IMG/VR virus record: IMGVR_UViG_3300047198_000026
Span: 1 to 64,000 of that record
Length of the DNA: 64,000 nucleotides
Reading direction: 5' to 3' (one strand)
Origin: a virus
Position 1 is the stretch's first letter. Each line of letters opens with the position of its first letter. Position numbers and translations under genes: made by a program. A model generated the notes under the pieces. It had not been told where the DNA came from. It worked only from the letters and a program-made list of their open reading frames with translations, and did not search any database. Below, in pieces: positions 34,749-49,293 of this stretch.

Positions 34749-36749
34749 TTGGGAAATTTTGGTAACTATATTTACCGACCATCATTCGGAGCCTCGGGGA
34801 CATCTGAATACACCAACTTTGATACGGGATTGGCAAATGTAGACACAGAGGTTTCTTCAGGAGCTTATCATCGTCAGTTAACCACTAATGCTCATGGACT
34901 GACCTTTACTGGCCCAGGGGTAGGTGGGGGATTGGATGCTGATAAAGTAGATGGCTATCATGCTGCCTCCTTTTTGTTATCCGGGGGTATTGCAACTAGT
35001 GCTAGTGACTCTGCTAGGCTGGCAGGAGTCCTACCAGCAGGATATCTCTTGTCAGGAGGTACTTCTTTAAGTGCCTCTGACTCAGCCCGACTAGCAGGTA
35101 ACCTTTCGTCTGCTTTCCTTTTGTCAGGGGGGACAGCCTTAAGTGCCACTGACTCTTCTAGACTAGCTGGTAATCTTTCTACAGCTTTCTTAACAGTTGG
35201 TGGGTCAGCAGGTGACTCTGCCTTATTACAGGGAAACTTGGCGTCAGCCTTTCTGGGTGCCTCATCCAATGCTGTCAGTGCTAATGACTCTGCCAGACTG
35301 GCAGGTAACCTTTCGACAGCCTTCTTAGGAGCCAGTTCTAACGCAGTCAGTGCAAATGACTCTGTTAGACTTAATGGTAAACTTGATACGGCTTTCCTAG
35401 CCTATGATGCTAATGCAGTTAGTGCCAATGACTCCTCACGATTAGGGGGTAACCTACCTTCCGTATACACCAGGAAAGACGGCACAGTTGCCTTTACAGA
35501 CACGTTCTCTGGTACTAATGCCTATTTTACGGGAACGTTATCAGCCACTGCCTTATCAGCCGCTAACGTCTATACCACAGGCAACGTTGGCATAGGGACA
35601 GGGAGTCCTGCCCACACTCTAGATGTCAATGGCATTATGTCAGGTAGTACAGTCCTTGCTACTACCTTTTCAGGTACTAATGTCTATGCCACCACAATCA
35701 CGGCTAGTACAATGAGTGCCTCTGACTCTTTCCTCTTACTTGGTAAGACATTGGCAGAGGTAGTGGCCAGTGGGGGTGGTGCTGGAGACATGATGTCTGA
35801 TGGCACAGTTGCCTTCACAGACATGATGTCAGGTACCAGTGCTTACTTCTCTTCTTCCTTGTCTGCTTCGAAGTTTAGTGGGACGTCAACCAGTGCTGAC
35901 GATTCTACCTTACTATTTGGTAAGACATTGGCACAAGTAGTGGCCAGTGGGGGTGGGGGTTCAGGAGATGTTAAGTCTGATGGTACTGTTGCCTTTACTG
36001 ACATGCTGTCAGGTACTAGTGCCTACTTCTCGTCTTCAGTATCAGCTTCCAAGTTTAGTGGGACATCAACCAGTGCTGACGATTCCACCTTATTATTTGG
36101 AAAAACCTTGGCAGAGGTAGTGGCCAGTGGGGGTGGAGGAGCTGGAGATGTTAAGTCTGATGGTACTGTTGCCTTTACTGACATGCTGTCAGGTACCAGT
36201 GCTTACTTTTCGTCAACCATATCGGCAGCAGGGTTCTCTGGAACAGCAGCCAGTGCTTCTGACTCAGCCATGTTACAGGGGAATCTTGCGTCAGCATTCT
36301 TAGGAGCCAGTTCTACGGCTTTATCCGCCAATGATTCCACCCTATTATTTGGTAAAACATTGGCACAGGTAGTAGCCAGTGGTGCTGCATGTATAGTTTG
36401 GAGCGTCCCAGGAACTTTAGTTGCAAATGCAACAGTTTCAGTATGTTCTCAATTTTATATACCATTTGATTGTACTGCGGTAGGCGTGAATTTAATTGTT
36501 ACAACTACTCCAGGAACTAATGCAGACATAATAGATATCCATTATGGAGCAGCAGGAGGGATTGGAACAACTATTTTTAGTACGAAACCACAGATTAATG
36601 CTGGTGCATATACTGGTGGGGGTGCGGCAGCGTTTTCGGAAACGGCCCTTGCTGCAGGCAACATGTTAACAATGTTTATTGACCAAATCGGAGCAGCTGG
36701 AAATGAAGGAAAATTCCTTACTGTAGAGCTGAAAGTGAGCGTGCCATAA
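34749..36749 (+). CDS. Tail fibre with S-A-S-D-S repeats
   Basis: A 666-aa protein from a TTG at 34749 (AAGGGGACTTAAT). It has G-G-L-D-A-D-K-V-D-G-Y-H-A-A-S-F, a fibre motif common in phages, then ~20 near repeats of S-A-x-D-S-x-x-L-x-G-x-L-x-x-A-F-L, probably an elongated fibre shaft. The last ~130 residues form a distinct globular tip (I-V-W-S-V-P-G-T-L-V-A-N...). The last base of its stop is the first base of the Cys-repeat peptide ATG (TAATG), so the two are co-translated. Confidence 0.75.
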   Translation: MGNFGNYIYRPSFGASGTSEYTNFDTGLANVDTEVSSGAYHRQLTTNAHGLTFTGPGVGGGLDADKVDGYHAASFLLSGGIATSASDSARLAGVLPAGYLLSGGTSLSASDSARLAGNLSSAFLLSGGTALSATDSSRLAGNLSTAFLTVGGSAGDSALLQGNLASAFLGASSNAVSANDSARLAGNLSTAFLGASSNAVSANDSVRLNGKLDTAFLAYDANAVSANDSSRLGGNLPSVYTRKDGTVAFTDTFSGTNAYFTGTLSATALSAANVYTTGNVGIGTGSPAHTLDVNGIMSGSTVLATTFSGTNVYATTITASTMSASDSFLLLGKTLAEVVASGGGAGDMMSDGTVAFTDMMSGTSAYFSSSLSASKFSGTSTSADDSTLLFGKTLAQVVASGGGGSGDVKSDGTVAFTDMLSGTSAYFSSSVSASKFSGTSTSADDSTLLFGKTLAEVVASGGGGAGDVKSDGTVAFTDMLSGTSAYFSSTISAAGFSGTAASASDSAMLQGNLASAFLGASSTALSANDSTLLFGKTLAQVVASGAACIVWSVPGTLVANATVSVCSQFYIPFDCTAVGVNLIVTTTPGTNADIIDIHYGAAGGIGTTIFSTKPQINAGAYTGGGAAAFSETALAAGNMLTMFIDQIGAAGNEGKFLTVELKVSVP

Positions 36750-37042
36750 TGGGAATGCCAAGTTGTATATGCGACATGGCTGTAAATACTTGTTCATGTA
36801 ATGTGGCTGTATATGATTGTTCATGTAATCAGACTACATACGGCTCATGTATTTGTTATTCAACATGTGCAAGTGCATATCACACCTGCTACAAGGATTT
36901 CGAATGTGGTTGTTTTTGGTTTTGGTATAGTTGTAGTGTATGCTACAATACAGTTTATGGTTGTAGTGTATGCTACAATACAGTTTATGGTTGTAATTGT
37001 TATAATCTAAAATATGCTCCAGATGTTTGGTTGTTTTATTAG
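36749..37042 (+). CDS. Cys-repeat peptide, candidate RiPP-like substrate
   Basis: A 97-aa protein almost wholly made of Cys-rich repeats: C-S-C-N-V-A-V-Y, C-S-C-N-Q-T-T-Y, C-I-C-Y, C-G-C-F-W-F-W-Y, two identical C-S-V-C-Y-N-T-V-Y and C-N-C-Y-N-L-K-Y, consensus C-x(1,2)-C-[NDYF]-x3-Y. No signal peptide or standard leader is visible. It is coupled to the fibre gene (TAATG) and followed by a cassette of radical-SAM enzymes. The same repeat recurs in the protein at 45785 and at the end of the enzyme at 40080. I propose it as a modified peptide; the length and lack of leader are unusual for a RiPP precursor. Confidence 0.75.
   Translation: MGMPSCICDMAVNTCSCNVAVYDCSCNQTTYGSCICYSTCASAYHTCYKDFECGCFWFWYSCSVCYNTVYGCSVCYNTVYGCNCYNLKYAPDVWLFY
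36931..36990 (+). repeat. 30-bp perfect tandem repeat in the Cys-peptide gene
   Basis: 36931-36960 and 36961-36990 are identical (TTGTAGTGTATGCTACAATA and the next ten bases). Each unit encodes one Cys-repeat with the V-Y-G-C linker. Perfect identity indicates a recent duplication and shows how the repeat number can change. Confidence 0.95.
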
Positions 37043-37051
37043 GAGATAAAT

Positions 37052-37720
37052 ATGTTGCAGGAAATTGAAATCAAAAGAATGTTACCAATGGGCGGAATTA
37101 CAATCGAGAATTTTGTTTACAAAGATGTAGCCGATACATCCGAAGAGACGAGGGCTGCATTTCAGAAAGAGGTGGGACAATGGAAAGAAGATAACAAAGA
37201 ATTATTAAATAAAGCTAGGGAGACTATGCAAACATATGCGACACCTCCACTTTTATGGGCAGCTGCTGTTTACATATTTTTAAGAGAAGAACTTGTCGGC
37301 ATAATATTTTTTGATAAATGGGAAACTCATTTGGAAAATGAGATAACAATGAAATTCCATCCGTCAATTAAATTTAGAGCAACCTTTGATTATGCGTTGT
37401 CTGAAGCTTTATTTAGAGATTACATTTTTGAAAATAATTTAATGAATACTATTTATGCTATCCTTCCGTTATGGAGAAAGGGGAATTCTTTTGAATTTCC
37501 ATGTGCTAAGTCTACAGCACCCTGGACAACTGGTAATCCCTATGATTATTCAACCACTAAAATACTTTCAGAAGATATTAAAAATAACGGAATCATGATT
37601 GAAATACATCAGTCTAAGAAGGATTGGTTTCCTGGAAAGTTTGCACAATTAACCAGGAAAACTTGGCAAATTCCGACAAGCGAGCATACAATCGAATTAC
37701 CAAAGGAGGTAAAGAAATGA
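37052..37720 (+). CDS. GNAT-like partner protein 1
   Basis: A 222-aa protein. N-terminus: R-M-L-P-M-G-G-I-T-I-E-N-F-V-Y-K-D-V-A-D, nearly the same as the protein at 42158 (R-L-I-P-R-G-G-V-V-I-R...Y-I-D-V-N-D). Middle: A-V-Y-I-F-L-R-E-E-L-V-G-I-I-F-F. Its profile resembles the acceptor and strand-4 regions of GNAT acetyltransferases, but the acetyl-CoA loop is not obvious, so this is tentative. It overlaps the radical-SAM gene by ATGA. A substrate-binding or acyl-transfer partner is possible. Confidence 0.5.
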   Translation: MLQEIEIKRMLPMGGITIENFVYKDVADTSEETRAAFQKEVGQWKEDNKELLNKARETMQTYATPPLLWAAAVYIFLREELVGIIFFDKWETHLENEITMKFHPSIKFRATFDYALSEALFRDYIFENNLMNTIYAILPLWRKGNSFEFPCAKSTAPWTTGNPYDYSTTKILSEDIKNNGIMIEIHQSKKDWFPGKFAQLTRKTWQIPTSEHTIELPKEVKK

Positions 37721-38787
37721 GCAGTTATGCATTGATCTGTCACATTTTTATGACCTATGGATGTAACCGTAATTGTGAAGGGTGTTATACTAATCTGCAG
37801 GCAGATAGAAATTTGAAAATGTCAATAAAGACAGCTGATGATGTGGCGAAATGGCTCGTAAACTTAGCCAAAGTAGAGGAAGCAGAATTGTTTTCATTTC
37901 CGATACTTGGTGGGGAACCTTTAATGAATGCTGATGTGCTGTTTCATCTGATAGCGACTTTGCAAAGAGATTTACCAAAACATCTGAAAAATGTCCGAGC
38001 AAGGACAGGGGCGTCGGGAGTCAATGTAAAGAATGAGGATCGTCTCTTTATTCTATTTACTAACGGAGATTATTTGACGGAAGAAAATCTTAGAAGAATA
38101 GAAGCCCATAGATTGTTGGCCTACATTAATCCTACAGATGATAATCTCATCAGTGTGGAAGAGAAGGTTAAGAAATTGAAAGCAGTATGCGGGCATTGCA
38201 ATTTAGCAATTACACTGAATAAAAAGAATATGCCAAGGCTACCAGAGTTGGTTGATATTGCTATTAGAAATGGTGGAGTAACACGGATCAGTCGGATGTA
38301 TGATGGTGGTAGAGACCCAAATTACGTAAAGGAATATGGAAGACAGATGCACAAGGTATTTGATATGCTATTAGCTGCTCCAGTTCCCATGCATCCAAAT
38401 TGGATAGTTGAGAGCACCTGGGTGACCTGGGACAAACCATCAAATCCAAATGGTTGCGGAAAATGGTCTATTCATATGGGCCCAGACGGAGTAATCCGAA
38501 GTTGTAATGCTGATTACAGTACTAAGATTGGTTCAATCTACACTCATTCCAGATTGTCTGATTTTAAGTTTACTCATAGATGGAGTGCAAAGAATTTACC
38601 TGAGTGTCAAGGCTGTGAATTTATAACCTTTTGTCAAGGTGGTTGTCCTTATAGTCGTAAGTTGACTTACGGAACTTACGACAAGAGAACTCCATTTTGT
38701 GAGGAGCTGAAAACTCTTTACCCAAGGGTGCTTGAATTGGCTAAAAAATGGAAAGAATACCAAGAACGTATAATGAAAGGAGAATAA
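37717..38787 (+). CDS. Radical-SAM/SPASM-type enzyme, pair A copy 1
   Basis: A 356-aa protein. The [4Fe-4S] motif C-N-R-N-C-E-G-C is at residues 16-23, followed by Y. The G-G-E-P motif is L-G-G-E-P-L. The C-terminal region has a SPASM-like Cys set: G-C-G-K-W-S-I, R-S-C-N-A-D, E-C-Q-G-C, C-Q-G-G-C-P and C-E-E. It should use SAM to generate a radical on a peptide. It lies between two partner genes and is overlapped by the GNAT-like gene. It is the closest relative of the enzyme at 42871. Confidence 0.85.
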   Translation: MSSYALICHIFMTYGCNRNCEGCYTNLQADRNLKMSIKTADDVAKWLVNLAKVEEAELFSFPILGGEPLMNADVLFHLIATLQRDLPKHLKNVRARTGASGVNVKNEDRLFILFTNGDYLTEENLRRIEAHRLLAYINPTDDNLISVEEKVKKLKAVCGHCNLAITLNKKNMPRLPELVDIAIRNGGVTRISRMYDGGRDPNYVKEYGRQMHKVFDMLLAAPVPMHPNWIVESTWVTWDKPSNPNGCGKWSIHMGPDGVIRSCNADYSTKIGSIYTHSRLSDFKFTHRWSAKNLPECQGCEFITFCQGGCPYSRKLTYGTYDKRTPFCEELKTLYPRVLELAKKWKEYQERIMKGE

Positions 38788-38789
38788 AT

Positions 38790-39965
38790 ATGTTAGTTTC
38801 CAATGCGTCATTAAACTTGACTCAAGAATGTAATTTAAGATGTGAATATTGTTTTACGTATGGGCACACATCTAAACGGATGAGTTGGGCTGTCGCAAAA
38901 AAGAGCGTAGATTTTCTTTTCAATAATGCTAAACGTACAAAAGAAAATAAAATGGTTAGAATAGATTTTTGGGGAGGGGAGCCACTATTAGAATGGAATT
39001 TGTTGAAGAAGATAACTTTGTATGCAGAAAGTGTATCGAAAAGAACCACCATTCCTGTGCATTTTGGTGGAACGACCAATGGTACACTCCTAACTGAAGA
39101 GAAATTTACATTTTTGGGAAAACATGGTATTAAGTTTTTGGTATCTCTTGATGGCACGGCAGAAAGTCACAATAAATATAGGGTATTTAGATCTGGTAGG
39201 GGGTCTCACGCTCTAATAGTAAAAAATATGAAGAAGGTTTTGAAGAAATGGCCTGATTATGCTGTAAGATTATCCCCTTATCCAGAAAGTATTAAACGAT
39301 TTTATAACGACATTAAATTCTTAATAGATCTGGGTTTTAGGAATGTAATGTATAGTCCTGTATTTGAGGCAAACTGGAAAGAGAAAGATTGGAATAAATG
39401 GGAAGATGAAGGTTATAAAGTAGTGGATTTATTATCCGAAAAGAAGAGAGAAGGGATCAATATTTTTATTCATCAGTTTGATGAATTTTGTGGTCAGGAG
39501 TTGGATCAAAAATACCCTTGTGGAGCGGGGAGGCATTATATTGGGATTGACATAGATGGAGGAATATATCCTTGTCATCGATTTTGTAAATTTGATGGAA
39601 AATCTTGGAAAGAAAAGGAAACTTGTATCGGTCATGTAGACTTGGGTATCATTAATCTTGAATTTATAGATAGGTTTATTAATTTTAAAACCTGTGAAGG
39701 ATGCGAGTTTGCTAACACTACTCCTTGCTGTGGTGGTTGCCCAGCGACTAATTATGATCTCACAGGAGATATAAATACACCCACAGATAAGAATTGTAGA
39801 TGGATTAAGGTACAAACCAAAATTTCCAGATACATGATGGAGAAAGAAAATCTGAAAAGAACAACCCCACAAGCGGTTATGGATTTATTAAGACGGCTTG
39901 AAATGCGGGTGGAGCAAATAGAAAAATATATCGAGGATAAAAACAATTTATCCACGGTTACTTGA
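38790..39965 (+). CDS. Radical-SAM/SPASM-type enzyme, pair B copy 1
   Basis: A 391-aa protein from an ATG after GAAAGGAGAATAAAT. The motif C-N-L-R-C-E-Y-C is at 14-21, and F-W-G-G-E-P-L-L-E-W follows. The SPASM region has C-G-A-G-R, Y-P-C-H-R-F-C, C-I-G-H-V, C-E-G-C, C-C-G-G-C. It is closely related to the enzyme at 40080 (shared G-G-T-T-N-G-T-L-L). Anaerobic sulfatase-maturase-like sequences are the nearest described class. Peptide modification is likely. Its stop is followed immediately by a remnant of another enzyme. Confidence 0.85.
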   Translation: MLVSNASLNLTQECNLRCEYCFTYGHTSKRMSWAVAKKSVDFLFNNAKRTKENKMVRIDFWGGEPLLEWNLLKKITLYAESVSKRTTIPVHFGGTTNGTLLTEEKFTFLGKHGIKFLVSLDGTAESHNKYRVFRSGRGSHALIVKNMKKVLKKWPDYAVRLSPYPESIKRFYNDIKFLIDLGFRNVMYSPVFEANWKEKDWNKWEDEGYKVVDLLSEKKREGINIFIHQFDEFCGQELDQKYPCGAGRHYIGIDIDGGIYPCHRFCKFDGKSWKEKETCIGHVDLGIINLEFIDRFINFKTCEGCEFANTTPCCGGCPATNYDLTGDINTPTDKNCRWIKVQTKISRYMMEKENLKRTTPQAVMDLLRRLEMRVEQIEKYIEDKNNLSTVT

Positions 39966-40008
39966 GCTTGCTGAAAAGTGGAAGAGATATCAGGAGCATA
40001 TGTTGTAA
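39964..40008 (+). pseudogene. C-terminal scar of a third pair-A radical-SAM gene
   Basis: A 14-codon frame plus stop directly behind the pair-B gene reads E-L-A-E-K-W-K-R-Y-Q-E-H-M-L. It matches the end of the enzyme at 37717 (E-L-A-K-K-W-K-E-Y-Q-E-R-I-M). It is therefore the tail of a lost enzyme copy, showing duplication and deletion in the cassette. Confidence 0.7.
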
Positions 40009-40079
40009 GGAGTCATGAAACGGTAGAATTTATTCCTCCAGATGGGAGCTTTTTCAATTATTTTAATTAGAGAGGGAAT

Positions 40080-41330
40080 ATGACTGAATTTCCAATTACC
40101 AGATGTAGTATTAATTTGACTAGGGCCTGCAATCTTAAGTGTGCCTTTTGCTTTACCTACGGATGCCGTCCTGGCAGAATGGGATGGGAAACGGCCAAGA
40201 GATCGGTCGACTTCCTATTTCACAATGCCGAGAAGGCCACCATCCAAGAAGGAAAGACTGTTGAGATAGGATTTTGGGGAGGGGAGCCACTATTAGAATG
40301 GGAATTATTGAAGAGGATAACCCTGTATGCGAAGAAGACGAAACCCCCATCAGTGAATCTGATGTTTGGTGGAACGACCAATGGTACACTCCTGACCCCT
40401 GACAAATTTGCCTTCCTGGATGAACACAAGATATTCTTTATGGTCAGTATAGACGGGCAAGAGAAGAGCCACAACCTATACCGTAAGTTCCATGATGGAA
40501 GGGGTTCACATTCAGTGGTAATGAAGAACCTGGAGTCCATCCTAAAGAAATGGCCTTTCTATAGAGCCCGGTTGTCTCCCAGTGTGGAAACAGTCCCTGA
40601 CTTCTTTGAGAATATGAAATACCTCTTTGACTTTGGATTCGAATATGTTATGTTCTCTCCTGTCTATGAAGGCAATTGGACTCCTGAGGTGTGGAAGACA
40701 TATGAGGACCAATGTAAGTTGGTAGTGGATTACATGGTGTCAGAGAAGGCCAAGGGAAGGAATTTGAAAGTAGAACACTTCGAATCCTATAAGGGTTCTG
40801 ACAATTCTAAATGGCCATGTGGGGCTGGAAGGTTCTATGCGGGAATAGACATTGATGGGGCCATCTATCCTTGCCACAGATTTAACAAGTTTAATGACAT
40901 GCGACCATGGACTGAAAAGGAAGTTTGTATTGGACATGTGGATGTTGGAATCACCAAACCAGACTTTAGAAAGTTATTCACCACAGACTGGAAGCCTGAA
41001 TGTGGAGAGTGTCCAAGACTTAAGGACACACCTTGTCATGGGGGATGTTACGCAGTGAACTTCGACTTTACAGGAAAGATTAATACACCCCATCTAGGAC
41101 TTTGTTCCTATGTTGAGATGCAAAGAAATGTCTCAAAATACTTGGAAGAGAAACTTCCTTCCCCACCCCAACAGGGAACAAGGGGTTGTATTTGTTATAA
41201 TATGTGTTACGCTGAGGGAACAGACCAAGAGATTACTCATAGGGACAAATCGAATGATATGACGTGCGTGTGCTATAACGCCCAATATAATGGGCCTTTG
41301 GATGAGAAAATTGCTAGGAGGCTTATATAA
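40080..41330 (+). CDS. Radical-SAM/SPASM-type enzyme with Cys-repeat tail, pair B copy 2
   Basis: A 416-aa protein. C-N-L-K-C-A-F-C at 17-24, F-W-G-G-E-P-L-L, and a SPASM set (C-G-A-G-R, Y-P-C-H-R-F, C-I-G-H-V-D, C-G-E-C, C-H-G-G-C). After ~365 residues a tail of ~50 residues holds C-I-C-Y-N-M-C-Y (370-377) and C-V-C-Y-N-A-Q-Y (396-403), the same repeat as in the peptide at 36749. Pair-B copy 1 lacks such a tail. It could be a built-in substrate, a docking mimic or a self-modified cofactor. ATG at 40080 after AGAGAGGGAAT. Confidence 0.85.
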   Translation: MTEFPITRCSINLTRACNLKCAFCFTYGCRPGRMGWETAKRSVDFLFHNAEKATIQEGKTVEIGFWGGEPLLEWELLKRITLYAKKTKPPSVNLMFGGTTNGTLLTPDKFAFLDEHKIFFMVSIDGQEKSHNLYRKFHDGRGSHSVVMKNLESILKKWPFYRARLSPSVETVPDFFENMKYLFDFGFEYVMFSPVYEGNWTPEVWKTYEDQCKLVVDYMVSEKAKGRNLKVEHFESYKGSDNSKWPCGAGRFYAGIDIDGAIYPCHRFNKFNDMRPWTEKEVCIGHVDVGITKPDFRKLFTTDWKPECGECPRLKDTPCHGGCYAVNFDFTGKINTPHLGLCSYVEMQRNVSKYLEEKLPSPPQQGTRGCICYNMCYAEGTDQEITHRDKSNDMTCVCYNAQYNGPLDEKIARRLI

Positions 41331-42137
41331 GTGATAGCCATTCTTATTCAAAAAGAGCCCTATCCTATCCATGAGGGCCATAAGGCCGTAATCAACTATG
41401 CCCGGTCTTTGGGTGATCCGATAGTTATTATGCCCCCTCACGCAGGTATGTGGCATAAATACCTAAAAGGGGGAATAGAGGAAGTAGGAGAAGAGAATAT
41501 TGATGTTAGGATAAACTCTATAAAAGAATTAGGTATTCCAGTTGAGCGAATGCGCCCTGTCTCGGTTCACAAGGATATAAGACAAAAGGCATTAGATTTT
41601 GCCTCTGCCTTTATGGAACCTTATAAAGACACATTAATTTTAGACAGGTATATTCAAGTGGCAACCTTGCTTGTGGCAGGGACACACCTAAGACGTAAGA
41701 TATGGAAAGACCAGATGTTGAAGTCCAAAATCCCCATTGAAGCCGCGGCTAGGGGTCCGTCAGTGATATCCTTCTTTCTTGCCCAAGTAAATCCCAAGTT
41801 GGGTAGGCCCCCTTGTTATGTGTACCCTAAAATAGTTAAAGACCCTCGTACAGGAATTCAATTCCAGAGTTCTATAAATCAGATTTTGGGTTCACACAGG
41901 CCAGCCTTAGAAAGACTTCCCATGGTGCTTGGAGAATTTAAGGATAGGTTGAAAGTGGGAAGAAATTTAGAATTAGAGAAGGAGATTAATGGATCTTACT
42001 ACTATACTCCCTGGAAAATCCAGGAGATTGCTGTGTTTGAAGGGGGTATGGTTCCTGGAAGATTAGAAGTTGTATCCTTTAGGTTTCCCTGTTTAAGAGG
42101 GAGTATACTAATTGAGGTAACTGAGTATTATCAGTAA
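41331..42137 (+). CDS. HxGH nucleotidyltransferase-like protein
   Basis: A 268-aa protein from a GTG. N-terminus I-A-I-L-I-Q-K-E-P-Y-P-I-H-E-G-H-K-A-V-I-N-Y-A-R is the (H/T)xGH phosphate-binding motif of the nucleotidyltransferase superfamily (PanC, NadM, PPAT). These enzymes adenylate substrates; PanC-like ones form amide bonds through an acyl-adenylate. The rest is not close to a known member. It is in the radical-SAM cassette, so adenylation or amide ligation of the peptide is possible but unproven. Confidence 0.55.
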   Translation: MIAILIQKEPYPIHEGHKAVINYARSLGDPIVIMPPHAGMWHKYLKGGIEEVGEENIDVRINSIKELGIPVERMRPVSVHKDIRQKALDFASAFMEPYKDTLILDRYIQVATLLVAGTHLRRKIWKDQMLKSKIPIEAAARGPSVISFFLAQVNPKLGRPPCYVYPKIVKDPRTGIQFQSSINQILGSHRPALERLPMVLGEFKDRLKVGRNLELEKEINGSYYYTPWKIQEIAVFEGGMVPGRLEVVSFRFPCLRGSILIEVTEYYQ

Positions 42138-42157
42138 CAGGATGGAGGAACTAAGAG

Positions 42158-42874
42158 ATGTTTCAGTTAAAGGGTTGTTCAAGGTTAATACCTAGGGGAG
42201 GAGTTGTCATTCGTGGGATGTCCTATATAGACGTCAATGATGTCCTTCTTGAAGACAGGATGGCAACTAAGAAGTTTTTCGCTGAAGATTATGAGTACGG
42301 TGAGGCCGTTAGGAGAGGGTTAGCTCATTATAGAACTATGGAAATAGGTAGGCAATTTATTGTTTACGTTTATAAAAATCTGGACCTTCTAGGATGCCTC
42401 CTAAGTTTTGAACTACTTAATAACATGGATGGATATGGTAAGGGAGACTTTAATCATTCCCAATTAATCTATCCTAAATACAGGCATACCCAATTTTCTA
42501 GGTACTCATCACTAAACTTTAGGCACATGATGTTCCGGTCTGGAGTAGCCAATAAAATATATGTCTATGCTCCCTCTTCTAGATCAAAATCGCATTCCTT
42601 TCTAGATGCGATGGATGTGTCTAAAATGCCTTGTGCATCAGGATTACCATTTGAATTTATTGATATCCGATTTTCGGAGCACATCTCAGTTTCAAAAAGA
42701 TTACATCTTGAGGGAGTCCCTTTTCTTATTCTGGAATTTGATGGTGAGAAATATAGGAAGCTGACTTTAGATGATTTTGCAGAGAGTGTCCCCAATAAGG
42801 GTAAGGAACTTGTAGCCCAGTGGTTATCTGAGGCCGACCATGCGTCTGAATTGGTCAGAGGAGAGGTAAAATGA
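42158..42874 (+). CDS. GNAT-like partner protein 2
   Basis: A 238-aa protein related to the one at 37052: R-L-I-P-R-G-G-V-V-I-R-G-M-S-Y-I-D-V-N-D at the N-terminus, G-C-L-L-S-F-E-L, N-K-I-Y-V-Y-A-P-S-S-R-S-K-S-H-S-F-L-D-A-M. The later part resembles GNAT β5-α4. It overlaps the radical-SAM gene by ATGA, just as copy 1 does, so protein and enzyme are a fixed pair. Confidence 0.5.
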   Translation: MFQLKGCSRLIPRGGVVIRGMSYIDVNDVLLEDRMATKKFFAEDYEYGEAVRRGLAHYRTMEIGRQFIVYVYKNLDLLGCLLSFELLNNMDGYGKGDFNHSQLIYPKYRHTQFSRYSSLNFRHMMFRSGVANKIYVYAPSSRSKSHSFLDAMDVSKMPCASGLPFEFIDIRFSEHISVSKRLHLEGVPFLILEFDGEKYRKLTLDDFAESVPNKGKELVAQWLSEADHASELVRGEVK

Positions 42875-43905
42875 TGCCTGCGTTGATGCTATATATAAAT
42901 ATCTCTAATGCTTGTAATCGGCAGTGTGATCATTGCTATTCCTCCAATACTGGTGAGAAGATGAGTAAAGAAACAGTTGGGGAAGTGGTTAAGTGGGCTA
43001 AAGGTATTTGCGAGGAGGAGAAAGTTAAATATCTCAAATTAATTTTCTTAGGAGGGGAACCTCTAAATAATATAGATAACCTTTTGCTGATGGTTGACTT
43101 ATTCAATAAGCACCTTCCTCAGCTTCAAGATCCTTTTTGGGATACTAAGTATATGTTGTCCACGAATGGTGATTTGATCACTGATTCTATTCTAAGAGAA
43201 CTGAAGAGCAGGAGAATTTGGGTATCGCTGAATCCGTCAAACAGTAGTATGGGAGACCTTGAAGATAAGATATTAAAGGTTAAAGAAGTGAATGGAGGGT
43301 GTGCATTACTTACGGTGTTAAACGACGCGAATTTGCCAAGAGCCGTGGATCTGGCTAAATTGGCAGTTAGGCATGCCTGTTTTATTAGAATGAATAGGAT
43401 GTTTCAAGGGTCATCAGATCCAGAATACATTAGAGAGTACGGTAGTCAATTGGGCAAAATGATGGACATCTTCCTTGCTGCCAAGAGGGTAGCCTGGCCT
43501 AACTGGATGGTAGATTCTACTATGCCTGTAAGGTTTGCTGACATTTATTCCCAGACAACCAGAAATTGTTATTCTTGTGGTGAGTGGCTCTTTACCATCG
43601 ATTGGGATGGGATGATAAGAAGTTGTAACGCTGATCCTGATACGGTTATTGGGTATATTAGAACTCACAAGCATAGGAAGGATTTTAAATTCCCCCATAG
43701 GTGGAGTGCTGCAAATCTTCCAGAGTGTCAAGGCTGTAAGTGGATTGTTTTGTGTCAGGGTGGATGCCCTTACTGTAGAAAAGTAGCGTATGGTACGTAC
43801 GACAAGAAAACTCCATTTTGTGAGGTGCACAGGGATATCTGGCCTAAACTTATGGAACTTACGGAGAGATGGAAATTAAGTCATAGTGGGTTGTTTACAC
43901 GATGA
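42871..43905 (+). CDS. Radical-SAM/SPASM-type enzyme, pair A copy 2
   Basis: A 344-aa protein. C-N-R-Q-C-D-H-C at 15-22, F-L-G-G-E-P-L-N, R-S-C-N-A-D, E-C-Q-G-C, C-Q-G-G-C-P-Y-C. Clearly paralogous to the enzyme at 37717 (shared G-T-Y-D-K-x-T-P-F-C-E). Preceded by its GNAT-like partner as in copy 1, so the whole two-gene unit was duplicated. Confidence 0.85.
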   Translation: MMPALMLYINISNACNRQCDHCYSSNTGEKMSKETVGEVVKWAKGICEEEKVKYLKLIFLGGEPLNNIDNLLLMVDLFNKHLPQLQDPFWDTKYMLSTNGDLITDSILRELKSRRIWVSLNPSNSSMGDLEDKILKVKEVNGGCALLTVLNDANLPRAVDLAKLAVRHACFIRMNRMFQGSSDPEYIREYGSQLGKMMDIFLAAKRVAWPNWMVDSTMPVRFADIYSQTTRNCYSCGEWLFTIDWDGMIRSCNADPDTVIGYIRTHKHRKDFKFPHRWSAANLPECQGCKWIVLCQGGCPYCRKVAYGTYDKKTPFCEVHRDIWPKLMELTERWKLSHSGLFTR

Positions 43906-43915
43906 GAGGAAAAAT

Positions 43916-44335
43916 ATGGACAATAAATATGTAGCAGGCTTGTTTGATGGAGAAGGGTACATAACAATATCTAGGTATAAAAGACCAGAAACCGGTACCA
44001 TGCACTATAGTCCTCAAATTGGAATATCAATGTGTTGGAAACCAACTCTAGAAGAGATGAAAGAACAGTTTGGTGGGTCTCTTCGTAAGCACAAGTTGTT
44101 GAAAGGGAAGACGATCTGGAGATGGGTAATCTATAATGGACAGGCCAAGAACTTTTTAGAAGTCATCCTACCTGAACTAAGGGAAAAGAGGTCTCAGGCA
44201 GTTCTAATTATGGATTATTATATAAATCTTGAATCTAGGGGTAAGTCTAAAATTCGGTTATCCGAGTCTGAAGTTGGAACTAGAGAGAAGTACTATCGCG
44301 ATCTCAAAGGTCTAAAGAAAATGGAGTGGGTGTAA
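43916..44335 (+). CDS. LAGLIDADG homing endonuclease
   Basis: A 139-aa protein from an ATG at 43916 (AGAGGAAAAAT). It begins K-Y-V-A-G-L-F-D-G-E-G-Y-I-T-I, a single LAGLIDADG motif. Free-standing, at the border of the radical-SAM cassette and the fibre-like genes. It may have helped move the cassette. Its stop overlaps the next ATG (TAATG). Confidence 0.8.
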   Translation: MDNKYVAGLFDGEGYITISRYKRPETGTMHYSPQIGISMCWKPTLEEMKEQFGGSLRKHKLLKGKTIWRWVIYNGQAKNFLEVILPELREKRSQAVLIMDYYINLESRGKSKIRLSESEVGTREKYYRDLKGLKKMEWV

Positions 44336-45057
44336 TGTCCTGGCAGAAGGCATGGCCAAAGGTCTGGGCAGCGGCTGCCACATGTGCTGTTGATGTAGTT
44401 AGTGGAAGCACAGAGCAGATACGGGCCAACTGGAAAGCAATAGAAGACTGGACTAAGAAGGGTCACTATAATATGGACAACGTGACCAGCGCTGGAGCCC
44501 ACGTATTGGGACAAGTAGGAACTCTGGCAGTGTCCTCTACCTCTCAAATTGCTACCATATCAGCCCCGGGAACGGGAGCATGGGCTTGGGATACAACGAA
44601 AGGGGAATTACAGATTCTAACGTCAGGAGGAGTTTGGGAAAGTGCCACCGCTTCAGCCTTCTCAAGAGTGAGAAAAGTCCATACGGGGATTTCAATACCA
44701 GATTCAATTTGGACATCAGTACCTTGGTATGACTCTACTGCTCAAAGAACCTACGACGGACTATCCGAATTTGGAAGTTATACAGTATTTACTGCAATTA
44801 ACGCTGGTTACTATTTAGTTCGAGCATCTGCCCACTGGGCTGCTGCTACAACCGATTACCAAAAAGCTATTGGGATTTTTAATGGTGCCTATGCTACTGC
44901 AATAGGAAGACGGTTTAGTAGGTGGAAGAGGACCACTTCGGTAGTTGATGTTGTTCAGATGGCTGTAGGTGACCAACTCTCAATAAAGTGTTGGCAAAAT
45001 AGTGGGGTAGCCTCTAGTATTGATGAGGCTAAATTGAGCATCACGAGGTTGAGTTAA
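44335..45057 (+). CDS. Jelly-roll-like virion protein 1
   Basis: A 240-aa protein from an ATG overlapping the endonuclease stop. N-terminal N-W-K-A-I-E-D-W-T recurs in the proteins at 45059 (N-W-T-A-I-S-D-T-W) and 45785 (N-F-D-A-I-E-D-W-S). The C-terminal ~130 residues read like a C1q/TNF-type β-sandwich (A-G-Y-Y-L-V-R-A-S, V-G-D-Q-L-S-I-K-C-W-Q-N, L-S-I-T-R-L-S). A receptor-binding or baseplate role is likely. Confidence 0.65.
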   Translation: MSWQKAWPKVWAAAATCAVDVVSGSTEQIRANWKAIEDWTKKGHYNMDNVTSAGAHVLGQVGTLAVSSTSQIATISAPGTGAWAWDTTKGELQILTSGGVWESATASAFSRVRKVHTGISIPDSIWTSVPWYDSTAQRTYDGLSEFGSYTVFTAINAGYYLVRASAHWAAATTDYQKAIGIFNGAYATAIGRRFSRWKRTTSVVDVVQMAVGDQLSIKCWQNSGVASSIDEAKLSITRLS

Positions 45058-45058
45058 A

Positions 45059-45775
45059 ATGAGCTGGGACGCAAGTGTACCTATTAGTGGAACACGAATT
45101 GTTGATATCCCTACTGTACATGGAGCTAATTGGACTGCCATTTCAGACACTTGGGGATTGGAGCATCAAGTATGGTCAGTGGTTGCATCAGGACGACATA
45201 AGCCAGGAATATCTGGGTTAGTTGGTTCTATAGCATCTTCGGCATTACCCCTAACTGCTGAGGAAGGATGTGTGGTTCTTGATGATGCCTCCTCTGGAGT
45301 GGGATGGGTTTATTCTGGGGGCAAATGGCAAATGCCCTCCTCAGGATTTGCCACCGTTCGTGTACATGTTTATAGAGGAACTAACCAGACCATATCCGCG
45401 GGAACTACTGCCACAGTGGGATTTTCCACCTCAGGAGTGGACAGTATGGCATCATTTAATACTACAACGTTTACCTTTACATCTCCCGCAGACGGCTACT
45501 ATCTAGTGAATCCCGTAATCAGTCTCACTCCAGATGTGGCAAACAAAGCAGTTTACCTTCAGGTTCAACATCTGGATTCTCTAGGTACTATTCGGTATAC
45601 AGTAACAGAGAGCAAAGGGACTTTGTCCACAGATGAATTCAGCATGGAGGTTTCACCCGTTCTTTATCTATCAGCAGGAGATTTGATTAAGATAACATTC
45701 TATCATAATTCAACGTCAATGGCCATTCAGGGAGGAGCAGAACGCACCTTCCTTGATATTTACCGTATGTCATAA
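45059..45775 (+). CDS. Jelly-roll-like virion protein 2
   Basis: A 238-aa protein, same layout as the neighbour: N-terminal W-T-A-I-S-D, C-terminal D-G-Y-Y-L-V-N-P-V-I-S-L, A-G-D-L-I-K-I-T-F-Y-H-N-S, F-L-D-I-Y-R-M-S. No Cys-repeat domain. It is the plain counterpart of the Cys-rich protein at 45785. Confidence 0.65.
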   Translation: MSWDASVPISGTRIVDIPTVHGANWTAISDTWGLEHQVWSVVASGRHKPGISGLVGSIASSALPLTAEEGCVVLDDASSGVGWVYSGGKWQMPSSGFATVRVHVYRGTNQTISAGTTATVGFSTSGVDSMASFNTTTFTFTSPADGYYLVNPVISLTPDVANKAVYLQVQHLDSLGTIRYTVTESKGTLSTDEFSMEVSPVLYLSAGDLIKITFYHNSTSMAIQGGAERTFLDIYRMS

Positions 45776-45784
45776 GGAGTGTAA

Positions 45785-47650
45785 ATGTCCTTATTTAGAA
45801 CAGGATATCCGTCATCTATCCACAAAATATATGAAATTCCTGGTGTAACCCAAGAAAACTTTGATGCTATAGAAGACTGGTCTGGTATTGAGCATTCAAG
45901 TTTGACCTCTGCTTCTTCTGGGCAACATGTGGCTGGGGGAGCAGGAGTCGTTTATGTGGGTAAAACACTGGACATTTCTGAATTATCTCCGGCCTCTGGG
46001 GCTATGGTTAGGAATCGTCAGACGGGTACCTTTGGGAAATACGACGGATTAGACTTCTATGGGATATGGGCAAATAAGTACTCTCGGGCTCGGGCCACCT
46101 TGTCAGGGGCGGTATTTCCCCTAACGGCAGACTGGCAAGGTAGGTTTGACTGTAACCAGATTTTGTGGGACTCCTTACATGAATTTCACATTGATCCAGC
46201 GGACGCATTATCTGGATCATTTACTCCCTGTGCCGATGGGTTCTATCATGTTATTGCTAGTTTTGCCATCTCAGCAGCTAATACACAAGTAACAACTAAC
46301 ACATCACGACCCTCTGGAAATGGAACTGTACAGTGGATTCCCAGTGGATATGGGGTAGGTTATAATTATAAGAACGTGTGGGAATATCCTAGTGTTAGCG
46401 ACGAAATGCACTATTTTAATGAGTCAGCAACATCTGGAGTATATGATTCCTTTAATCTATCTCCCGCAGCCACTGGAGGACCTGCAGGATCTTCTTCTGT
46501 TGTTATAGGAGCAACTTGGAGAGTTCGGCTTCGGAATGGAAGTTGTGCTTGTAATAATACGTGTTACCATGATATTACCACCTGCACTTGTAATAATTCC
46601 TGCTATGAAGATACGGCCTGCACCTCCTGTGATATGACATGTTACCAACAGGGAAGTTGCACATGTAATAACTCGTGCTATGGTCAGGCTGGATGTACCT
46701 GTAATAACACCTGTTATAGCCAAACGTGCACGACCTGTAATGCCACCTGTTATAGTCAAACGTGCACATGTAATTATACCTTATATGGACCTCATTGTAA
46801 CACATGCTACATTACGTGCTATTGGTTTGCTTGGTGCAAAGGTGATCAGAGCTGCACCTGTAATAATACCTGTTATGGGGGATTCACCTGCACCTGTAAT
46901 AATTCATGCTATGGACAATCCTGTACCTGTAATAGCACTTGTTATCAACAGCAATGTGCCTCTTGTTATAATACTTGTTATGGGTATAGTGGATCTTGCA
47001 CCTGTAATAGTTCGTGTTATGGACAAGGCTCTTGCACTTGTAATAATTCTTGCTATGGTGATACCCCTTGTTCCTGTGATGTAACCACCTACGGGTATTC
47101 TCATTCGTGTGAATGTGATGCGTCTCAGTATCTAGGAGTTTTCCAAATTGCTCCTGAGATATATGATTCCGCTTTAGGTTGGGCAAGGGGGACACTAACA
47201 TCCATAGCTGGAACAGCATATGGAGAATATACATATGTATGGGACACTGACCCTTTTAGAACCGCCGACTGGACAGCTGAGACTGCCTCAGGAATTACAA
47301 GTATAGCATATCGCCTGTTTACTCCCTACACGGCTGCCTGTGGAGTGTCGGCTGATGTGAGCCAATTTTATTTAAGCCAATCTTGGTTTCCTGTAAGACC
47401 CGTGTTGCGTTTGCAGATAGTAACGAATGAAGCAAATGCGTCCTCTTCGGTGGTGGCCCAGACTCAAGAGACCATTGCAGAAGCAGGGGCAGAAAGTTAT
47501 CAAACTGTCTCTCTATCCACTATAGTTCCTCTCAAAGGCGGAGACAGGCTTAGTTTTAAGGTTAGGAAAACCCGAATTGATGATATGAGTACAAATAATT
47601 ATGCCTATTCCTTTGTGAGTGTGCATCGGTTAGGGGGTCAGTGGATTTAA
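45785..47650 (+). CDS. Jelly-roll-like virion protein with 16-repeat Cys domain
   Basis: A 621-aa protein. N-terminus and C-terminus match its two neighbours (D-A-I-E-D-W; D-G-F-Y-H-V-I-A-S-F; G-G-D-R-L-S-F-K-V). Between β-strands, residues 254-449 hold 16 repeats of C-x(1,2)-C-[NDY]-x-x-x-Y, mostly C-T-C-N-N-[ST]-C-Y. This is the same repeat as the peptide at 36749, in a place likely to be an exposed loop or tip. I propose that the radical-SAM enzymes modify this domain on the virion protein, for example by crosslinking, for receptor binding or stability. The chemistry is unknown. Confidence 0.75.
   Translation: MSLFRTGYPSSIHKIYEIPGVTQENFDAIEDWSGIEHSSLTSASSGQHVAGGAGVVYVGKTLDISELSPASGAMVRNRQTGTFGKYDGLDFYGIWANKYSRARATLSGAVFPLTADWQGRFDCNQILWDSLHEFHIDPADALSGSFTPCADGFYHVIASFAISAANTQVTTNTSRPSGNGTVQWIPSGYGVGYNYKNVWEYPSVSDEMHYFNESATSGVYDSFNLSPAATGGPAGSSSVVIGATWRVRLRNGSCACNNTCYHDITTCTCNNSCYEDTACTSCDMTCYQQGSCTCNNSCYGQAGCTCNNTCYSQTCTTCNATCYSQTCTCNYTLYGPHCNTCYITCYWFAWCKGDQSCTCNNTCYGGFTCTCNNSCYGQSCTCNSTCYQQQCASCYNTCYGYSGSCTCNSSCYGQGSCTCNNSCYGDTPCSCDVTTYGYSHSCECDASQYLGVFQIAPEIYDSALGWARGTLTSIAGTAYGEYTYVWDTDPFRTADWTAETASGITSIAYRLFTPYTAACGVSADVSQFYLSQSWFPVRPVLRLQIVTNEANASSSVVAQTQETIAEAGAESYQTVSLSTIVPLKGGDRLSFKVRKTRIDDMSTNNYAYSFVSVHRLGGQWI
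46544..47131 (+). repeat. Sixteen Cys-repeat units in the virion protein gene
   Basis: Each unit encodes C-x(1,2)-C-[N/D/Y]-x-[T/S]-[C/L/T/Q]-Y, separated by spacers of mostly 3-5 residues with one of 10. Codons vary between units (TGT/TGC, AAT/AAC), so the repeats are not recent exact copies and appear maintained by selection on the protein. Confidence 0.9.
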
Positions 47651-49293
47651 TGACTACTTCTAATATTCTAAGTCAATTAGGACAAGTTCTCTCCCAAGCA
47701 GGGGCTTCACAGAATGCCCCCTTAATTATAGACAAATTTAATATAGGGTTGGTGGATGAGGAAGTCCTTTCGAAGTACCAATACAGTCCACAGGCCTGTG
47801 TTGATTGTCAGGATGTAGAGTTATTTCCTAGGGGTACTCTTAGTAGAAGGAAGGGTTTTGATAAATTAAATTCAGCTCCTTGGTATAATGCACCCATCAA
47901 TAAAATATTTCAATGGCAGACTATAGATGGAGTAAGCCTATTCCTTGCCTTTTGTCCAGCATCAGGGTCCACTAGCGCGGATATCGGCTCAATTACGATT
48001 ACAGGCTCTTTTGTCCTTACTCCGATATTATCTGTGTCTTCTGCGTCTGCAAGTTGGGATCCAGAATGGACGGATGTAATTTCAGTAACAGCCTATTCGG
48101 GCTCTGCTGTATTTGTTTATCCAAATACTGAGGTGCCATACGCTTGGAGTGGGCAGGCTGGTTCATTGGTTGAATCCTTATCGGCCTCTTCTCCAAGTGG
48201 AGCAAAATATTGTGCGAGTTATGGAAATCACCTTTTATTAGCTAATGTTTTAGATGTTAACGGAACTCGTCGGGGATCTAGAGTGGTGTGGTGTTATCCG
48301 GGCAATCCCGGTTATTGGCCTGCTACCTACTATCTAGATTTTGATGCCGATGATGGAGACGAGATAACCTCAATTTCATCTTTGGGTAACTTGGTAGTCG
48401 TACAGAAAGAGACAAAGACTTTTGTAATGCACTACACTGGTGATGTGGACATATTTAAAGGGGAAAGGATATCAACATCTACTGGGTGTGTGGCCCATAA
48501 TTCTGCAAGAGAATTTAAAGGGGTATTATACTTCTTGGCAGTGGACGGAGTTTATAAATTTGATGGTGTTTCCCCTCCAGTAGAATTGTCAGGAAACATT
48601 AGAAACCACTTTAAGCAGTTGAACAATCAATACCGGCATATGAGCCAGACGACTGTTTTTCCTGATAAGGACCAGGTTTGGGTGTCTGTTCCCTATGGAT
48701 CCTCTATATTTCTAAATAGGATCTACGTTCTAGATTTTGTACAATCGGCCTGGACTAAGTTTAACATCTCCTGTGCATCCTTGAGCCTTATTCGATATGG
48801 AGCCAACTTGGCTTATGAAAACTTTCCCTTGGATTATGGAAACTATGACTTAAAGATAGGAGACGCATATGGGGCTCGATCGGAGATCATTGTTACTGGA
48901 ACCTATGACGGATTTATCAATAGGTATGGATTATTTAATACGGATAATGGAGTCCCTGTCATAGCCTATTGGACTAGCTGCTGGCTAGATTTTGGGATGC
49001 CCAACTACAATAAGAGAGTTGTCAGGGGGACTGTCTGGTTAGAGAAGGAAGGAGATTATGACCTATCTGTTTTTGTCTTTGCTGACTGGGACGATGTCAC
49101 TCCTATTAAGACATTTACTGTATCTCTGTCAAGTACTGTTCCAACTATCGAGAAAAGACTTGACTTCACTAGGAACTTACGATCCTTTCAATTTACTGTC
49201 ACTACTTCTGGGGCTACGGCCTCTGGATCTCCTTTTAGGATTCATAAGATGGCTTGGGATTGGGTACCCAAGGGGAGGACTCAGGTCAAATGA
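47650..49293 (+). CDS. Tail or stabilisation protein, β-propeller-like
   Basis: A 547-aa protein; ATG at 47650 (TAATG). A-C-V-D-C-Q-D-V-E-L-F-P-R-G-T-L-S-R-R-K-G-F is the start of a β-rich domain seen in phage stabilisation or P22 gp10-like proteins. Repeated W/Y-rich strands follow. It would sit in the tail tube or connector. Coupled to the Cys-repeat protein. Confidence 0.6.
   Translation: MTTSNILSQLGQVLSQAGASQNAPLIIDKFNIGLVDEEVLSKYQYSPQACVDCQDVELFPRGTLSRRKGFDKLNSAPWYNAPINKIFQWQTIDGVSLFLAFCPASGSTSADIGSITITGSFVLTPILSVSSASASWDPEWTDVISVTAYSGSAVFVYPNTEVPYAWSGQAGSLVESLSASSPSGAKYCASYGNHLLLANVLDVNGTRRGSRVVWCYPGNPGYWPATYYLDFDADDGDEITSISSLGNLVVVQKETKTFVMHYTGDVDIFKGERISTSTGCVAHNSAREFKGVLYFLAVDGVYKFDGVSPPVELSGNIRNHFKQLNNQYRHMSQTTVFPDKDQVWVSVPYGSSIFLNRIYVLDFVQSAWTKFNISCASLSLIRYGANLAYENFPLDYGNYDLKIGDAYGARSEIIVTGTYDGFINRYGLFNTDNGVPVIAYWTSCWLDFGMPNYNKRVVRGTVWLEKEGDYDLSVFVFADWDDVTPIKTFTVSLSSTVPTIEKRLDFTRNLRSFQFTVTTSGATASGSPFRIHKMAWDWVPKGRTQVK

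Follow-up and report, generated by a model that had tools for sequence, protein, structure and literature searches.

Why a phage should carry four radical S-adenosylmethionine (radical-SAM) enzymes next to its tail-fibre gene is the question raised by the window analysed here, which comprises bases 1–64000 of the virus record IMGVR_UViG_3300047198_000026 (102,592 bases in total, 102.6 kb). The cassette that holds these enzymes also encodes a 97-aa peptide of cysteine (Cys) repeats, and the same repeat forms a large array in a 621-aa virion-type protein just downstream. Here it is proposed, as a likely reading inferred from the locus and its relatives, that the phage radical-SAM enzymes modify the Cys arrays of virion proteins. 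The first-pass annotation of this DNA, whose genes were all found where it had placed them, had suggested post-translational modification, by the phage, of a structural protein of its own, and this is supported by arrays within tail proteins of unrelated phages together with the two-way co-occurrence of enzymes and arrays.

Co-Occurrence of Enzymes and Cysteine Arrays

The four enzymes belong to two families, rSAM-A and rSAM-B, each with two members in the window. Scans with rSAM-A gave 12 further IMG/VR records with close relatives (L-numbers below denote the loci or records recovered in the scans) and, the window included, 12 of the 13 records contain a repeat array. Besides the window, these are L001, L006, L008, L009, L012 (12 repeat-pattern matches, elsewhere in the same record), L015 (a divergent array) and L018–L022, with L008 and L009 seemingly near-identical and counting as about one. 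In the opposite direction, DNA searches with two patterns of the repeat C[T/S]CNxxCYG matched 49 loci. A true array, taken as two or more copies per open reading frame (ORF), was present in nine records; rSAM-A or rSAM-B accompanies it in eight, and the remaining record is a fragment of 7.6 kb ending inside the array. Among the 40 chance-match loci there were no rSAM-A-level relatives, and two had a weak 21-bit radical-SAM match. Enzyme relatives lacking Cys-repeat genes, which the first-pass annotation had set against its own reading, are not the rule.

A Cys-dense ORF, defined by nine or more Cys per 40 residues, was found at 9 of 11 rSAM-A loci, at 23 of 68 other viral radical-SAM loci and at none of the 40 chance-match loci, which served as controls and are shorter in total (358 vs 994 kb). 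The corresponding Fisher probabilities against the controls (1.8e-8 for rSAM-A and 5e-6 for the other viral radical-SAM loci) are optimistic, because the records are akin by descent and not fully independent. Many Cys-rich ORFs in the wrong strand or frame of GC-rich bacterial loci were dropped as shadows.

The Cysteine Repeat and Its Host Proteins

The motif C-x(1,2)-C-[NDY]-x2-x-Y occurs five times in the 97-aa peptide (shuffle mean 0.19, maximum 4 in 2000 shuffles), where a relaxed count gives eight units, and 16 times in the 621-aa protein (shuffle mean 0.10, maximum 2). The consensus from 124 units is C-x-C-[N 57%, D 22%, Y 16%]-x-[T 49%, S/A 30%]-[C 74%]-[Y 83%]. A stricter DNA pattern of the repeat, run over the full 102.6 kb of the record, gave nine matches, all forward and all in the array of the 621-aa protein, and the reversed-pattern control gave none. 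The 16 copies had been reported by the first-pass annotation in a jelly-roll-like virion protein; the copy number stands, and the assignment to the virion rests on PHROG matches of the sister proteins.

Arrays of about 4 to 16 units are built into differing host proteins, as in modular insertion. They are found in jelly-roll-like virion proteins (the window, L001 and L006, with eight units in each of the latter two), in the central tail fibre J (L008, L009, L015 and L022; phrog_31, E 5e-35 to 4e-40) and, in the L012 record, as three arrays in a 790-aa protein, judged baseplate-like from sequence and gene order, and an adjoining 351-aa protein. They also form standalone peptides or small proteins (the window, L007 with 16 units, L018, L019, L020, L182 and L215). 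Arrays in tail proteins of these kinds (jelly-roll-like, J and baseplate-like) fit the modification of structural proteins better than that of a secreted peptide.

The 97-aa peptide of the window has no obvious leader, its first Cys being residue 6, and it is coupled to the tail-fibre gene by a start/stop overlap (TAATG), in agreement with the first-pass annotation. Its C-terminus, KYAPDVWLFY, recurs in standalone peptides of other phages, several of which end in KYAPxxW[L/M], and the C-terminal domain of the tail-fibre protein is also found in fibre genes that stand ahead of Cys peptides, clearly in L007 and weakly in L018. None of the array proteins tested had a convincing family in Pfam or NCBIfam, and the 16-repeat protein had no matches when searched against phage records. 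A scan with the L007 peptide, in which few stretches were used, recovered only itself and was replaced by the DNA repeat patterns. In a podophage-type relative with rSAM-A (L013:9989-12209), a shorter jelly-roll-like protein has ISATN-type repeats in place of the Cys array.

Radical-SAM Enzymes

All four radical-SAM proteins exceed the PF04055 gathering score of 29.5 (33.8–59.1 bits), and the CxxxCxxC, GGEP and SPASM cysteines are invariant in the rSAM-A and rSAM-B alignments; with both sets of cysteines invariant, the enzymes look catalytically active. The SPASM model TIGR04085 scores above its cut-off in both rSAM-B proteins, which in alignment form a SPASM family distinct from rSAM-A. For rSAM-A 2, the SPASM model PF13186 is sub-threshold (15.8 vs 21.5), and its SPASM cysteines are nonetheless invariant and aligned with those of CteB. 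The two pairs of radical-SAM/SPASM-type enzymes of the first-pass annotation are thus borne out; it had overlooked a pair of Cys repeats in the C-terminal tail of the second rSAM-A.

The nearest NCBIfam model for rSAM-A is PapB (NF047865), with E 9.7e-75 and 251.8 bits for rSAM-A 1 and E 6.8e-69 and 232.6 bits for rSAM-A 2, both under the curated cut-off of 340 bits. Against solved structures, the rSAM-A profile had as its top match the SCIFF thioether maturase CteB (5WGG, E 2e-53), the nearest solved relative across the radical-SAM and SPASM domains, followed in second place by an anaerobic sulfatase-maturating enzyme (anSME). Because CteB is aligned only from residue 99, past its RiPP recognition element (RRE; RiPP, ribosomally synthesized and post-translationally modified peptide), this leader-binding part is missing in rSAM-A, in which CxxxCxxC starts at residue 15–28. 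CteB thus differs in having its own N-terminal residues 1–98, absent in rSAM-A, and in being bacterial, not phage. In bacterial genomes, the best rSAM-A relative is 30% identical and the window-type repeat is near none of the relatives; these searches thus gave no sign of a recent bacterial origin. As a side observation, an rSAM-A gene in L019:1458-3122 seemingly holds an intein after the conserved PCGAGRHY segment.

A radical-SAM/SPASM gene beside a short Cys-rich peptide is the classic layout of a RiPP locus, and the top NCBIfam matches are RiPP maturases. The standalone peptide could then be the true substrate, released as a conventional RiPP (a bacteriocin, a signal or an agent of superinfection exclusion), with the arrays in virion proteins incidental. 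Several features make this improbable: the precursor has no obvious leader, the enzymes have no RRE, the cassette proteins searched include no likeness to a transporter or leader peptidase, and L001, L006, L008, L015, L022 and G009 show arrays only in tail proteins, with no standalone peptide seen.

One or two repeats also stand in the C-terminal tail of rSAM-A itself, after the full SPASM cysteine set, in about half of the family (rSAM-A 2 of the window, L001, L006, L008, L012, L021 and the records behind L232/L233) and are absent in rSAM-A 1, L013, L015, L018 and L019. The rSAM-A 2 and L021 enzymes are 36% identical overall, and their tails share 27 of 37 residues (73%). One module is thus common to the C-terminal tail of the enzyme, the 97-aa peptide and the virion-type protein.

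With about three Cys per 11–12 residues and the CxC/CxxC spacing typical of such sites, the arrays could instead be metal-binding or disulphide-rich stalks, metallothionein-like and formed without an enzyme, to which the radical-SAM genes are linked for another reason. We regard this as quite unlikely given the two-way co-occurrence in unrelated phages, the motif in the enzyme tail and the distance of merely 2–40 bp between enzyme and array gene at many loci. It is very improbable that the enzymes target something else, such as a host surface sugar, a tRNA or a metabolite: a metabolic or fitness role was proposed for the radical-SAM genes of Campylobacter phages CP220 and CPt10 (Timms et al. 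2010, PMC2853527), and one CP220 radical-SAM cluster adjoins amidinotransferase and sugar-transferase genes, but the SPASM architecture of rSAM-A and its kinship to PapB and CteB indicate peptide substrates, and the linkage to Cys-array virion genes is tight. That the repeat holds an Fe-S or other cofactor installed with radical-SAM help, as a redox-active tail element, is hardly credible, in spite of CxC...C motifs that an Fe-S enzyme also carries in its tail, since to our knowledge radical-SAM enzymes are not needed for Fe-S clusters and the repeat tail of rSAM-A follows an already complete SPASM cysteine set.

Proposed Mechanism

For the modification of virion proteins, the following course is proposed. 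The phage would produce its Cys-array modules in one of two forms, as inserts in proteins of the tail, fibre or baseplate or as a standalone peptide whose gene is translationally coupled to that of a fibre, and the radical-SAM/SPASM enzymes of the same cassette would act on the repeats and install cross-links, as is supposed by analogy with PapB. These would most likely be thioethers from Cys to a carbon of the neighbouring Asn, Asp or Tyr, although for thioethers as the bond type the chances are judged to be about even. A flexible Cys-rich segment would in this way become a rigid element, resistant to proteases and exposed on the tail. The enzymes may recognise the repeat itself, independently of a leader, as suggested by enzymes without an RRE, substrates without an obvious leader and repeats in many enzyme C-terminal tails; the latter could be a built-in docking segment or one that is self-modified. 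Where a cassette also encodes the PanC-like ligase and the GNAT protein, these may add an acyl or amide group in a second step. The positions of the arrays, at tail tips and in fibres and baseplates, suggest that they serve host contact or extracellular survival, which is the weakest step, and a role in receptor contact in particular is put forward tentatively, at somewhat below even chances. The genes, their predicted folds, the arrays and their presence in different virion proteins, and the co-occurrence are observed; what is inferred from these comparisons comprises the action of the enzymes on the arrays, the bond type (thioether, C–C or other) and the role in adsorption or stability.

Some observations weigh against this proposal. 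The records are related, as noted for the Fisher probabilities, and L013 has rSAM-A and no array within its 15.9-kb fragment. Another record (L010:7345-11026) has PanC-like, GNAT and two rSAM-B genes, and no Cys array was found in its 101.8 kb. The PapB scores of both rSAM-A proteins fall short of the curated cut-off. Regarding bond type, the C-x3-D/E motif of PapB substrates is absent from the window-type repeat, judged by the 124-unit consensus. By curated score, RRE and substrate motif, rSAM-A is outside the PapB family.

Comparison with Known Systems

The closest parallel is the PapB/freyrasin type of ranthipeptide maturation, in which, as with rSAM-A, a radical-SAM/SPASM enzyme stands beside a Cys-rich repeat substrate. 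PapB installs six thioethers, each at the cost of 2 Da, and is tolerant of differences in the spacing and context of Cys-Xn-Asp (PMC9413430). In contrast to PapB systems, rSAM-A is sub-cut-off and without an RRE, and its substrates are without an obvious leader and likely virion proteins.

Radical-SAM/SPASM modification within proteins, as opposed to small leader-bearing peptides, is the work of QhpD and the anSMEs. These act on one bacterial enzyme or subunit, whereas the likely targets here are repeats in several unrelated phage structural proteins. The Firehammervirus phages CP220 and CPt10 resemble the window in having a phage radical-SAM/SPASM gene near a CTC[DN]CNY array and a tail-fibre-attachment gene, and differ in the repeat, which is another one, and in the enzyme, which is distant.

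Other Array Types and Cultured Phages

The same scans recovered other viral and prophage radical-SAM genes 2–50 bp from phage proteins with other types of Cys array. Small phage-like proteins of the NCNCACTYNC type were seen in viral loci (L048, L056, L066, L073, L076, L081 and L089) and in the bacterial contigs L126 and L135; the type extends over viral contigs and Polynucleobacter and Paraburkholderia loci, mostly 2–50 bp from radical-SAM genes (overlapping in L066), and for the two proteins tested no convincing Pfam or NCBIfam family was found. Further array types beside radical-SAM genes are CTCNCNY (L030), CQSCQ (L054, L060 and L067) and CTYC (L133).

Two pairs come from cultured phages. 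In Achromobacter phage JWF, the tail-fibre protein gp028 (L174:2676-4127) contains CNCDCNCNCSC followed directly by a Hint (intein-like) domain and lies two genes ahead of the radical-SAM gene gp030, which is 46% identical to its Polynucleobacter counterpart. In Campylobacter phage CP220, gp140 (L249:10932-12536) has an array of the 7-aa unit CTC[DN]CNY and adjoins the tail-fibre-attachment RNA ligase gene, with the radical-SAM/SPASM gp136 (L249:14742-15911) about 2 kb away. Relatives of gp140 and gp136 occur in the same 15 Campylobacter phage records, and the array is identical in the six records read. The gp140-type protein is annotated as hypothetical, and as N-acetylneuraminate pyruvate lyase in CP21 and WX1. 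The unusually many radical-SAM genes of CP220 and CPt10 and a 21-bp repeat, the sole intragenic one, have been reported, unlinked to each other (Timms et al. 2010, PMC2853527). In CP220, whose genome was covered in its entirety, the CxxC pentapeptide-like proteins (L246:24206-24577 and L248:38106-38531) are unlike the arrays here and were left out of the class, and the large radical-SAM cluster, which adjoins sugar and amidino genes, may have another purpose.

The JWF and CP220 pairs are considered analogous to the window system, and a common mechanism by homology is not claimed. The general proposition would be that many tailed-phage lineages, cultured ones included, cross-link Cys arrays in tail-tip, fibre and baseplate proteins without a leader, giving stapled receptor-contact elements, with the enzymes of the CxCNxxCY branch carrying the target motif; we favour it by a small measure.

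Locus Layout and Accessory Genes

The 102.6-kb record contains a tailed-phage structural block with terminase, portal, major head protein and other virion proteins. The cassette (Table 1) is flanked by the fibre gene on one side and by a conserved virion gene (47641-49293) on the other, and all genes between them are on the + strand, in the order Cys peptide, GNAT-like 1, rSAM-B 1, rSAM-A 1, rSAM-A 2, PanC-like, GNAT-like 2, rSAM-B 2, LAGLIDADG-type ORF and three virion-type genes. Judged from alignments, rSAM-B 1 probably starts at 37717 and rSAM-A 1 at about 38790. The G+C content is 0.34 in the peptide and 0.39 in the enzymes vs 0.45 in adjacent tail genes, as expected for an acquired module. 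The three jelly-roll-like virion-type proteins are mutually related, and only the third holds the Cys array. A window-related backbone (fibre, then three jelly-roll-like genes) without the enzyme cassette was seen in L092:8091-11703, with the third gene truncated at the contig end. LAGLIDADG-type ORFs, one of which lies near the cassette in the window, are also present in L001:3349-7066 and in L092:1840-6679, seemingly interrupting the head-protein region of relatives.

Table 1. Features of the cassette and its flanks in the window.
Feature	Position	Strand	Basis or remark
Tail-fibre-like protein, 666 aa	34749..36749	+	ORF; stop overlaps Cys-peptide start (TAATG)
Cys-repeat peptide, 97 aa	36749..37042	+	ORF; repeat count
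GNAT-like protein 1, 222 aa	37052..37720	+	Weak homologue of 42158-42874, phmmer E 3.7e-7
rSAM-B 1, radical-SAM/SPASM, ~356 aa	37717..38787	+	PF04055 33.8 bits; TIGR04085 SPASM 41.6 (cut-off 27)
rSAM-A 1, PapB-like radical-SAM/SPASM	38790..39965	+	NCBIfam PapB NF047865; longest ORF from 38748
rSAM-A 2, PapB-like radical-SAM/SPASM, 416 aa	40080..41330	+	52% identical to rSAM-A 1
rSAM-A 2 C-terminal tail, two Cys repeats (CICYNMCY ... CVCYNAQY)	41187..41288	+	Sequence, alignment
PanC-like protein, 268 aa, HxGH	41331..42137	+	AlphaFold; PDB matches
GNAT-fold acyltransferase-like protein 2, 238 aa	42158..42874	+	AlphaFold, Foldseek
rSAM-B 2, radical-SAM/SPASM, 344 aa	42871..43905	+	PF04055 42.7 bits; TIGR04085 35.3 bits
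LAGLIDADG-type ORF	43886-44335	+	Between cassette and jelly-roll-like genes
Virion-type protein 1 (jelly-roll-like), no Cys array	44326..45057	+	phrog_13989 virion structural protein, E 1.3e-8
Virion-type protein 2 (jelly-roll-like), no Cys array	45059..45775	+	Weak tail-fibre PHROG matches
Virion-type protein 3, 621 aa, large Cys array between N- and C-terminal parts	45785..47650	+	
Cys-repeat array, 16 copies, period mostly 11–14 aa	46541..47150	+	Repeat count, DNA pattern

The protein between the enzymes that had been labelled HxGH nucleotidyltransferase-like is better described by its predicted fold (AlphaFold pLDDT 81.5), which is that of the acyl-adenylate-forming amide ligase pantothenate synthetase (PanC). 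Its 24 best PDB matches are all PanC (E 3e-8), at about 12% identity, and HxGH is invariant in five homologues; the predicted fold suggests acyl-adenylate chemistry and amide ligation. PanC-like relatives turned up solely in records that also have rSAM-B (5/5). Both proteins annotated as GNAT-like keep that assignment, GNAT-like 1 by weak homology and GNAT-like 2 by its predicted structure (pLDDT 79), which matched many GNATs in Foldseek with probability 1.00, E 2e-4 and TM-score 0.4–0.65.

Significance

In the open-access literature, to which the search was confined (preprints and most subscription journals lay outside it), nothing was found that links radical-SAM enzymes to phage virion proteins. 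Chemistry of this class is known, and that search gave no phage-encoded, leader-independent version with virion proteins as its targets. Nor did the first-pass annotation know of a described phage system of this kind. The system is not unique to the phage of the window. If the proposal is true, phages cross-link their own tails by radical chemistry, and the system would supply enzymes that need no leader to staple repeats within folded proteins. It would also provide a concrete hypothesis for many radical-SAM genes in phages such as Campylobacter CP220, and a new determinant of host contact that would be accessible to mass spectrometry of cultured phages.

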